Program-made: the position numbers and the translations under genes | From: Spongilla lacustris | Lineage: Eukaryota > Porifera > Demospongiae > Spongillida > Spongillidae | Length of the DNA: 64,000 nucleotides | NCBI GenBank assembly: GCA_949361645.1 | Contig: OX442434.1 | Span: 1,025,103-1,089,102 of the forward strand | Direction of reading: 5' to 3' | The notes under the pieces: model-generated | What the model was told of the DNA's origin: nothing | What the model saw: the letters and a program-made list of their open reading frames with translations, nothing else | The model's database searches: none | Part shown: positions 14,998 to 20,900 of the stretch, piece after piece | How the letters are laid out: every line of letters starts with the position of its first letter | Numbering within the stretch: the first letter of the stretch is position 1

Positions 14998-17900
14998 ATG
15001 TCGCAATTGGTTGCTGGATCCTCCTATCGCAAAGTTCAAATCCTACGGGACCAGCCACTTGGCAATGGAGCATACGGAATGGTGTGCAGGGCACTGTGTG
15101 ATGAACTGCCCTGCGCTGCTAAGGTACTCCATCCCGTGCTGGTAAGCGAGAGAAACACACTGATATTCCGTCAGGAATGCCAGCTATTGAGTTCTGTGAA
15201 GCATCCAAACATCATCCAATACCTCGGGACGCACTTAGAGAGCCCCAACAGTCTAGTCCTCCTCATGGAGCTGATGGATGAAAGCCTCACCTCCTTCCTG
15301 GAGAGGTCCGCTCGCCCCATCCCCCTCCACACCGAGGTCAACCTCTGCCATGACATATCTCTGGCTCTTGTCCATCTCCATGCCAATGACGTAATCCATC
15401 GTGACCTCTCCAGTAACAATATCTTGCTCAGTGGAAGCACGAGGGCAAAGGTCACTGACTTCGGAATGACCACGCTGATTGGTTCAAATGCTCAGGTCTC
15501 CAAGCTTACTCACGTCCCTGGATGTCCAGTGTACATGTCACCAGAGGCCATGGCTGAGCCACCTACCTACTCTAGCAAGCTGGACATCTTCTCATTTGGA
15601 GTTCTAACAATACAAATCCTTACTGGTAAATATCCTAACCCAGGACCATCACGACAGAGACAAGGGAACACAAAGAGTGGAATGCCTGTAGAGGTGCTTG
15701 TTCCAGACATCGAGCGTCGTAAGGCTCACATAGACCTTGTTGATCCCTCCCATCCTTTGCTACACTGTGCCCTTGTGTGTCTGAACTACCTGGAGAAGGA
15801 TAGACCAACAGCTCAAGAGATGTGTTCCCAAATGGCCGCATTGAAGAATGTGCAATATACCAATAGTGTGCAAGTATATTCAGAGAGGACACTTAGTAGC
15901 CAATTAGCTGCTAAAGAGTTACAATTAAAAACACTTTGTAGTCAATTAGAGGCTAAGGATAAGGAGTTGGCCAGGAAAGAAGCACAATTGAATGAAGAAA
16001 GGAAATGTACAGCATCGAAGTTACAGGCTATGGAAGCTGAACTTCAGGGGCAGCTGTCCACAAAGAGGCGTCAGATGAGGGGCCTTCAGTCGAGGCTGTT
16101 AGAAGCCATGAAAAAAGGGATTGCTGAAGTCACATCAAAACTTGGTAAGACAAAAACCGTTATTTTAGCCCTGGTCACAAGTCTGTCATTCACATACAAG
16201 CTTTCTTGCGTTTGTAACACTGTGCATACAATATTTATTTATTTTACTCATACATACAATCCATACATCCACTTCTATAGAGGCTGATTCCACATTTGTG
16301 ATAAATGCCGTAAGTCTATTTGATGAAACCTGAATGCATATGCGCACGCACAAAAAAGTGTGCATGTATTAATCTGTTTACAGGTTCTTTTTTCTATATC
16401 TGCCACAACTTTAAATATGTGGTATATGACATCATATTGAGTGCACAGCTGAAATTGATCGCATTGACATAGAGATAGTCAAATAGGTGCAGTGTGAATC
16501 AAAAAATGAGATGCTGTAAGTAAAACAGATTCAGAGTAGAACAATTAATATTTGCCTGGAACTGAAGTGGTGTGTTTGAACCTTGCTTTTTAATCCTTCT
16601 TTCTCATCTGATTTATGATATGCTTGATTTGCTGGTTTAGGTTGATGAATTTTATGTTGAGTGCCCTATATGTTTGGAAGAGTGTGGTAATAGTGATGTA
16701 AGCCATCTACTGATGGGTGTGGCTTGGCAGTTACATGATTTTATTTCAGATGGTGCAGATGCCTGGATGTCAACACTCTGTCTGCAAGGAATGCTTCAAA
16801 AACCATTTTACTAATGTGATAAAAACACAGAGCATAGAACACTTCAACTGTCCTGTTTGTGCACAGCCAGATACGGACAATGCTGATTATGATGTGTACT
16901 TAGATGATTTTAGGTCCATTGTAAGTTTTCTATTTACTGTTAGGATTGGTAAGATCTCTGCACTAAGGCTTGCTGGTGTATTAACTAATAAACAGGGTTA
17001 CTGACTTGGATAGCTGAGGTACCAAAGGCCACACCTACAGTTGTGGGCATGTTGTAAACATTAGGGCTTCTCTTCATTACACTTGCCCTCACACTTGCCC
17101 TTGTTTAGATTGGGAACTTCTGCAGCCGTGAAGTATATGAGTTGTGCAGCCAGAAACTAATGGACTACCATCTTTCCAAAGACCCTAATGCTTGCTGGTG
17201 TGCCAATGTAAGTGACAAGCCTTCTTCTCCAAGTAGTTATTAATATCACTGGGTTAGGTGCCTTGTGATTGTGCTGTAAGTACTAGAGGGAGATGTGCAC
17301 GTTGAGGTATGATGATGTCATTATGGTCCTATCATTTCAGGCTCATAAAGGTCTCACATGTGACCAGTTTGCCCAATGGAAGCACGACAATGACCCACAG
17401 CTTCAGCAACAAGGGCTAGCAGCTTATCTGGAGGCCAATGGTATAGGTAGGGGAAGACGTGTTGTGTGTGGAGCCTCTGGTCATGTAACTAACATTCTTT
17501 TAAGAGTGTCCCAACTGTCATAACTGGTATGAGTTGGCTCAAGGAGGCAGTATGCACTTCATATGTACTCAGTGCCCTAATGAATTCTGTAGTGGATGTG
17601 GACAGTCATTTAAACAGGGCCAGGTACATACTCCCTTGCTGTCCCTTGCACATAACCTACATGATATGGGACTTCCCCTCAGGTTTGTAAGAGGTTTGCC
17701 TCCTGTGCCAAACGTGGACTACACGCCCACCATCCCAGGAACTGCCTCTTCTTCCTAAGGGACTTCACTGTAGAGGAGCTGCAGAGATTCTTGGAGATGA
17801 ACAAAGTTCCCTTTCTCAAAGACCCGCCCAGAGCTCAGATTGAAGCTGCCAATGGGAAAGGTGAGGAGCAAGCTGATTGGTTGCCATGCAGAGTGTACTT

Positions 17901-20900
17901 GACCACACAGGTCCACAGCTAATGGTTAATTAATGGGCCATACCTGATTAGTTTAGTATTGTAGTTAATGTCTGCTGCATTAATAACTTGTGTTGTGTAG
18001 GTGGGCAACTTTGGTGCAGCGTGATGTTACAGAAGGAGACAGTGGATGGTCTAAAGGATGAGCCATGTGGAAAGGATGCAGTGGGTGGCTATGCTGGTCT
18101 GTGCAGGCATGTACTTCATAGCAGCCAGAATCGAGCACTTGTTTTATTTCTGTTTTTTCCTTTCAGTGTCCATTACACTGAATACCTGGTCATCAAGATC
18201 AACAAGCCGAACCTTGACCCCATCAGCCTTTATAATGTGTGTAATTTGGAAGCAATGTTGAGCCGTGAGGATCAGAAAATTCCAGAGAAGGAAGATGATG
18301 AAAAATTGTACAAGGAGAAGCTGATCAAGGTGAGAAGAGGGAGGGGTGGAAGGGGGTGGAGGGATGAAGAGGTTTGTAGGTTATCTTAGCAACATGTGGC
18401 CTCTTGAGGTTATGTACGGTGGCCCGGTAGGTCGCGCGTACGAGCAACGGTTTGAGAGCGAAAATGGGTACGAGCAGTGGTTGCCGAGCAAAAGTGAGAG
18501 AGCAAAATTGAGCACGAGCCGAGAACAAAATTGAGCACGAGCCGAGAGCAAAATGAGCTAGTGCTGAGAGCTAGAGCAGTTGTTTACATCTGTTTTACAA
18601 TACGTCATTTGTCACTGGAGTTAAAAATAGCCTCGCGATGGAATGCAGCTACGTAGCCTATTATGAGGCAGCACAAGGCTATTCAAGTTGTCTTCCGTAT
18701 TTACGCGTACGTGTAGGCTACTTCACTTTCGGGACCGGGGTAACGATCATACACTGTGTGTGTGTGTGTGTGTGTGTGTGTGTGTGTGTGTGTGTGTGTG
18801 TGTGTGTGTGTGTGTGTGTGTGTGTGTGTGTGTGTGTGTGTGTGTGTGTGTGTGTGTGTGTGTGTGTGTGTGTGTGTGTGTGTGTGTGTGTGTGTGTGTG
18901 TGTGTGTGCGTGTGCGTGCTTGTGATTCAGTTTAGCTTGCATCGTGGTATCTGTTAGCCCCCTATGTCATTTTTGTTGTGAGGGGCCGGGTGGGATGTAT
19001 ACGGTACATGCGTTGTCGAGTGTATCGATTGTGTACTGTGTGTGTGTGCGTGCGTGTGTGTGTGTGTGCGTGCGCACACACAACACACACACATGCCAAT
19101 AAATAACATCAATTGACAATTCGTTATGTTTCCAAATGTACATGTTAGCAGACTGTGTTACTTAACACTGGCAGCACAACACATATGAATGTGGGTTCAA
19201 GCAAGGCTGGTGCCTCCAAAGCTTTAGATGTAAGCAGATCTTTAGCTCTAATGAGAGGATGTGGCTGCGCCACTCAACTGTAGCAACAAACATGGATTCA
19301 GCAAACATTGGTAACAGGAAATATACATAGCTATTTCTTAGTCGTACGTCAACCTGCCGACTGAAATCCCGAGTGCGAGCAAAACAAAAAGAAACCATGC
19401 ATCAGTACAAGTGATGACATAAGTATTATTAAACCTTACATGTACTGGTTCTTCAGCTTAGTTATGAGACATACCTTGTGGCTTTAGCAAAGCCACACAC
19501 ACACACACGCATGCACACCCACACAACACAATACACAAACACACACACACACGCGCACGCACACACGCACGCACACACACACACACACACAGTACACAAT
19601 CGACACACTCGACAACGCATGTATACATCCCTCACAACAAAAATGACATAGGGGGCTAACAGATACCACGATGCAAGCTAAACTGAATCTCACACACACA
19701 CACACACACACACACACACACACACACACACACACACACACAGTGTGTGATCGTTACCCCGGTCCCGAAAGTGAAGTAGCCTACACGTACGCGTAAATAC
19801 GGAAGACAACTTGAATAGCCTTGTGCAGTGGCGGATCTAGGAATGGGGCTATAGGGGGGGCGGTTGGTTGGAGGGGCGGCCGGGGGCGGGGCCCACCCAC
19901 TCACCAGCAAGGGGGTATGGGGGAGCGCTGTAAGCTCCCCCATCGGGGCCTGGGGCGGAGCCCCAGAAGCTTTCACATTTTTCGCTTCAAAGCCGCTAAA
20001 AATCAGCGTATTCGCAGCGCAGTGAAAGAATTTACATACGCGCGAAAGACAACGAAGTTTATTGCGACAACGCGCCTCGTAACGGTCGTCAACAGGCGTC
20101 TAAGAATATTGGATATGCTCGCGTGAGCAAACCGTACTTCTCTATTTTGTCGTTGTGATGTATGTAAATCGCTTTAGAGGTATATGCATGGTGATGTAGC
20201 AATTGAAGCAGCAGCAGCTGTGAAAATGTACGGAACGGTGCACCTAATTAAACCTTTAGTGACAATCGGTAGACCATGTACTTGTACATTTAAAGACTGA
20301 AACTTTGTTATTTTTTATTATGATCGTGATTCAGTTAAGTTGGTATACACCTATCAGTGGCGTATAGGAAGGGAATATAGAGTGCAGCGGCCAACAAAGG
20401 TGGTTCCCCCGCCTCCCCGGGGAGGGTACGGGAGGGGGGCACCCCTCCCGGCCAGCTAGGGGCACGGGGGAGCGCTGTAAGCTCCCCCATCGGGGTCTGG
20501 GGCGGAGCCCTAGAAGCCAACGCTTTTTGTGTAGAAACCCCCCCAAAACAACGCTAAAACTGTAACCAGGTTAATTTGTTTTGAGACCTTGCCTCTGCGC
20601 ATGTAATATAAAATACAAAACGGCTATAGTGCAGCCAAGGCCACTTTTGGTAACCGTTGTACACTGGGTAGCCTAGCTTGAGCTAGCTCTCGCGATCGAT
20701 TTGAAGACCACTTGCATGTCATTAACTATAGCAGCAATTGCTCAGCTATAATTGAATTGATACATGCGCGCTTGTCAACCTTTTATTATAATATATTTTG
20801 TGTTGATGTGAAAAAGTGCAGCGGCCATGGCCGCTGCTGCCGCCCCAGCTCCTACGCCACTGCCTATGCACATGCAGGCAAGATTTCGAAGGAACGAATA

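Follow-up and report, generated by a model that had tools for sequence, protein, structure and literature searches.

To our knowledge, no animal described so far is known to carry a kinase and the linear-ubiquitin module on anything but separate proteins. In published passages, the catalytic cysteine of HOIP/RNF31, the catalytic subunit of LUBAC, is C885 (PMC9458678, PMC6963773), given likewise as Cys 885 in an excerpt of PMC5413910, and the IBR of the human protein spans residues 796-841. Passages of PMC12441119 describe a kinase/RING2-LDD pairing in trans, in which the STK4 kinase domain binds the RING2-LDD region of HOIP and STK4 phosphorylates HOIP at T786, inhibiting it. PINK1 and Parkin are comparable in that a kinase acts on an RBR ligase. 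Here, a locus of the sponge Spongilla lacustris was analyzed at which a kinase is predicted to be joined to a HOIP-type tail. The locus lies in a stretch of 64,000 nucleotides, called the window below (contig OX442434.1, positions 1,025,103 to 1,089,102, or C21:1025103-1089102 of the genome searched, which comprised 248.6 Mb in 51 contigs). The reading favored here, with a probability of about 0.55, is that of one gene encoding an active kinase and a HOIP-derived pseudo-ligase tail that would dock on the ubiquitin machinery. Such a protein would differ from the STK4-HOIP and PINK1-Parkin pairs, which are separate proteins with other kinases and active ligases.

The predicted gene was assembled as 11 exons on the forward strand (14998-22528). 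Exon 1 (14998..16144; 1147 nt) encodes the kinase domain followed by a long helix, presumably a coiled coil, and ends in CTTG/GTAAGA. It joins in phase to exon 2 (16281..16309), a 29-nt microexon entered in phase 1 and left in phase 0, just as the initial annotation of this DNA had proposed, and the accompanying claim that the RBR-LDD exons run on without a stop was confirmed, with exons 1-10 (14998 to 18329) splicing together in phase and the predicted frame remaining open through the RBR-LDD part. The first half of RING1 is encoded by exon 3 (16641..16697) and the second half by exon 4 (16750..16920), while exon 5 (17109..17207) carries linker 1 and the first two IBR cysteines (CWCA). Exon 6 (17341..17446) encodes the IBR end and linker 2, exon 7 (17505..17623) RING2, exon 8 (17683..17860) RING2/LDD with an FLRDFT motif, and exons 9 (18001..18106) and 10 (18167..18329) the LDD. 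The GC donor after 18106 is an addition to the earlier model, which had ended at 18329 with 758 residues. That end was not upheld: exon 11 (22466..22528; acceptor CACAG), located by likeness to the last HOIP exon of Ephydatia muelleri and of contig C37, supplies the C-terminus HIQQVLPF... and a stop, closing the frame at 745 residues.

The kinase and the RBR-LDD part are best read as one gene, because the exon phases agree, the RBR part lacks a start codon of its own, and the same parts recur at a second locus, on contig C9; on these grounds the proposal that a kinase and a HOIP-type module share one chain, made in the initial annotation, is supported at the level of the predicted gene. When the kinase frame was read on through intron 1, a stop was met at 16287, and an in-frame TAG at 16638 directly precedes exon 3. 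The 37 open codons ahead of exon 2 contain no ATG, and no exon with an ATG and a GTRAG donor in fitting phase was found in 16145-16600, although the same search was positive in 278 of 1000 random 456-nt stretches from 24-63 kb of the window. An improbable alternative is that a kinase gene and an adjoining truncated HOIP paralogue were duplicated together. HOIP genes and family kinases do occur separately in this genome, a third kinase copy on contig C10 consists of kinase plus microexon with no RBR in the 11.8 kb examined beside it, and the joining is predicted from genomic DNA; two neighboring genes would, however, leave the RBR part without a start codon or first exon, and sit poorly with the exact phase bridge given by the conserved 29-nt exon and with the identical set of parts on C9. 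Poly(A) signals were found neither in the kinase-RBR gap nor after the last exon, so their absence from the gap is uninformative. A misread frame or chance adjacency was ruled out by the 11 in-phase exons and the C9 copy.

RBR loci in the genome were defined solely by a PF18091 profile search, which gave seven matches at four places. The C9 locus aligns, with gaps, to positions 14918-24031 of the window and holds in a single stretch the kinase, the 29-nt exon with both splice sites conserved, RING1 (inverted, twice), IBR, RING2, LDD and the last exon. Contig C37 (36257 bases) carries two HOIP genes in tandem, both on the minus strand (L008-L011), HOIP-A and HOIP-B. Either the kinase/RBR pairing predates the split of the C9 and C21 copies or two neighbors were duplicated together, and the first is favored because the RBR part lacks a start.

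A Pfam search of the joined model bore out most of the domains first assigned to it, with matches to Pkinase (E=1.5e-41, residues 18-278), to E3_UbLigase_RBR (PF18091, the LDD part; E=3.7e-24, residues 608-704) and, over RING2, to IBR_1 (E=1.4e-12, residues 533-577); the RING1 models scored under their cut-offs. In the kinase domain, K42, H134-R135-D136, N141 and D154 were invariant across 32 aligned kinases, and with the catalytic residues in place an active kinase is the best prediction. An AlphaFold model of exon 1, made with 31 relatives, showed a kinase fold and one helix at 287-381 (mean pLDDT 78.9). Many kinases matched it in Foldseek, IRAK4 best (TM 0.53, normalized to the query), and the fold search did not single out a family. 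When RIPK-specific homology was looked for, the closest solved kinase sequences, among the best 60 of 2536, were a chain labelled EGFR followed by TNNI3K, PAK, IRAK4, CTR1 and BRAF.

With its catalytic residues and the long helix behind them, the window kinase belongs to a family in which such a kinase is combined with many different partners. A genome search with the kinase gave at least 109 matches; at about 20 places outside the window, identity was 53-85%. At L028 the kinase's own open frame continues into a second kinase, and at L030 into a septin-like GTPase. At L017 (C17:738706-739614), where the kinase is 79% identical to that of the window, the open frame runs into a likely TPR start; this extension and the next stretch, joined by hand, scored as TPR, with an above-cut-off match in the next stretch. 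On C22 a RING lies downstream of a family kinase. In the protein search (2895 proteins, 8000 candidates scored, the best 120 considered), a Pfam scan of 60 of the best 120 relatives found the kinase in all 60, Kelch in 20-21 and WD40 in two. The family also includes Em0016g960a of E. muelleri, with WD40; septin (P0076) and PARP (P0073) were further partners among the best 120. RBR families were not among the first 25 of the 59 Pfam families from those 60 relatives, nor was an RBR domain annotated among the 120 listed, one of whose annotations was truncated. The window protein thus shares with this family the kinase and the long helix and differs in its partner, and the RBR-LDD part would be one more addition to the family's range.

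The tail was compared with HOIP at several levels. Among solved structures, human RNF31 came closest to the RBR part (E=3.3e-72); this match and that to PF18091 establish the homology of RING1, RING2 and LDD to HOIP, and the likeness extends to the C-terminus. The nearest named full-length RBR relative was a HOIP-like protein of the freshwater sponge E. muelleri, P0003 (61% identity over 98% of the query part), and within the same genome the tail is 81% identical to HOIP-A over 312 aligned amino acid positions. Unlike HOIP, the window protein has a kinase, and the N-terminal part of HOIP, including PUB, was not found in the window with P0003 or the HOIP-A exons before RING1 as queries: P0003 (PUB at 152-213) matched only the RBR part, apart from one chance-level match (E=4.1), and no counterpart of the two pre-RING1 exons of HOIP-A was found.

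The second difference from HOIP lies in the active site. In an alignment with human RNF31, the RING2 motif reads GGSMHF in the window and GGCMHF in the human protein, whose cysteine we take to be C885 by counting along the human construct from its presumed first residue. At this column the window has Ser552 (AGT, codon start 17549), a change missing from the earlier model. The C9 copy likewise has Ser (AGT), the two HOIP genes on C37 encode Cys (TGT), and Cys is present in 57 of the 58 homologues with a residue there, in an alignment of 59 of the 61 homologues from which two RING-IBR arrays (P0001, P0002) were left out. The IBR is incomplete as well. Its exon, retained in HOIP-A and in the C9 copy, is gone from the intron at 17208..17340, and five conserved cysteines were lost with it. 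The first description of the module stood for RING1, RING2 and LDD, and failed for a 'short IBR', in that a whole exon is missing. An 18-nt AG...GT stretch in this intron, considered as a hidden IBR exon, has two Cys, is unlike an IBR by eye and was set aside as chance.

The loss of the catalytic Cys means that the tail should not pass ubiquitin via a thioester. Because Ser replaces Cys in both kinase-linked copies and the IBR exon is lost in the window copy, the tail is probably not a functioning linear-ubiquitin ligase, and the enzymatic role first suggested for it found no support. That the chain is nevertheless a working kinase/linear-ubiquitin ligase, perhaps with Ser552 as nucleophile, would fit the retention of the LDD, of the LRD motif and of the active-site His that follows GGSM, but is very improbable with the thioester Cys absent from both copies and the IBR exon absent. 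A Ser oxyester is expected to trap ubiquitin rather than transfer it.

Selection was examined through nonsynonymous (N) and synonymous (S) changes and their rate ratio (dN/dS). Between the window and C9, dN/dS was lowest in the kinase domain (0.40), intermediate in the coiled coil (0.86) and highest in the RBR part (1.18). Changes in the kinase domain and coiled coil were polarised with C10, and those in the RBR part with HOIP-A, or with HOIP-B where A was missing. On the window branch the kinase domain showed 5N:7S (p=0.012 against neutral), so that it looks to have been under constraint since the duplication, a test that, like the others here, rests on small counts. On the C9 branch the counts were 11N:7S plus two stops for the kinase domain, 10N:4S for the coiled coil and 35N:6S for the RBR part; the RBR counts omit one step (window) and two steps (C9) that read as stops within multi-change codons. 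When E. muelleri served as outgroup, the stem leading to the two kinase-linked copies received 18 changes, Cys to Ser among them, and HOIP-A received eight.

Several observations weigh against an intact, functional fusion. On the window branch the coiled coil showed 7N:1S and the RBR tail 18N:7S, the latter indistinguishable from neutral (p=0.25). The C9 copy is broken, its kinase being interrupted by two stops, an insert of 111 nt and the deletion of a single base, and the C10 copy is also broken, with a decayed microexon. No second intact fused gene was found in this genome, none of the three RBR matches from E. muelleri was a fusion, and the joined gene is a prediction from genomic DNA. In addition, the protein database seems to include a different assembly, from the same species or one very close to it, because P0063 matches L028 at 100% identity and P0066 matches L018 at 99.8% (no others of the best 120 have such a match among the loci compared); the best database match to the window kinase is at about 60% identity, and the window locus may be missing or unpredicted in that assembly. 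A search for orthologues with the kinase end, coiled coil and RING1 start gave one match, P0065.

The chief rival to the favored reading, which we regard as rather unlikely, is that the chimera is in decay, with a functional kinase and an RBR-LDD tail drifting toward loss. The Cys to Ser change, the lost IBR exon, the broken C9 copy, the neutral-looking RBR counts and the contrast between a dN/dS of 1.18 for the RBR part and 0.40 for the kinase domain would all be expected of it. Less easily accommodated is that neither the last exon nor any of the eight RBR-LDD exons contains a stop or frameshift, and that their splice sites are kept. Apart from the catalytic Cys, no Cys or His was substituted at Cys/His positions conserved in at least 93% (the Cys of the IBR exon being deleted); other positions at that level are altered (V393, F396, C481, A496, F612, F733). 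The low dN/dS of the window against HOIP-A (0.13, 312 codons) and HOIP-B (0.12, 321 codons) also speaks against decay, although this constraint may lie largely on the HOIP side.

Under the favored reading, of an active kinase with a pseudo-ligase tail, the 3' half of a HOIP gene would have been duplicated and joined behind a kinase of the many-partner family. The RING2 catalytic Cys would have become Ser before the C9 copy diverged, because the Ser is common to both copies. Given splicing and expression as predicted, the helix may self-associate, and the RING1 and RING2-LDD surfaces may provide docking sites for ubiquitin, E2~ubiquitin or HOIP partners, with the kinase acting there or the protein competing with real HOIP. 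As a tentative extension, held with somewhat less than even confidence, the dead RBR-LDD could be a docking element or decoy for ubiquitin and E2 that places the kinase at sites of linear ubiquitin in signaling, the Ser then being a C885S-like variant that arose in nature. If produced as a single chain, the protein would unite a kinase and a linear-ubiquitin module, by a pseudo-enzyme route in which the catalytic residue was lost and other conserved residues were mostly retained, and the many-partner kinase family would be a source of new signaling architectures.

The results are consistent with the novelty first claimed for this architecture. A kinase domain was listed in none of the 61 RBR homologues (length 0.55-1.75 of the query), and no report of a kinase/RBR-LDD protein was found in the literature searched, which did not cover Marin's 2009 animal RBR survey. 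The passages of PMC4327156 contain no such protein, and those of PMC2904391 neither such a protein nor the word kinase. The claim is tempered by the origin of the kinase in a family with many partners. Among the homologues, P0004 (1020 aa) has an unusual HOIP-like architecture: its RBR-LDD, which retains the IBR and GGC, is preceded by fibronectin III, a Death-domain match under the cut-off and, by eye, a hydrophobic N-terminus. The arrays P0001 and P0002, from E. muelleri, are tandem RING-IBR proteins, P0001 being without an LDD family match.

In the window, no RNA genes were found at Rfam gathering scores or by ARAGORN. Upstream of the kinase, the stretch at 14386-14849 recurs on C37 and partly on C10, and is probably a repeat. 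The last intron contains an insert of about 3.1 kb (18415..21532), not in the C9 copy, whose ends form an 84-nt inverted repeat (98% complementary) and which is probably a mobile element. Further inverted repeats are nested within it, for example 18671-18806 with 19691-19826 (136 nt, 99%), together with GT/AC runs.

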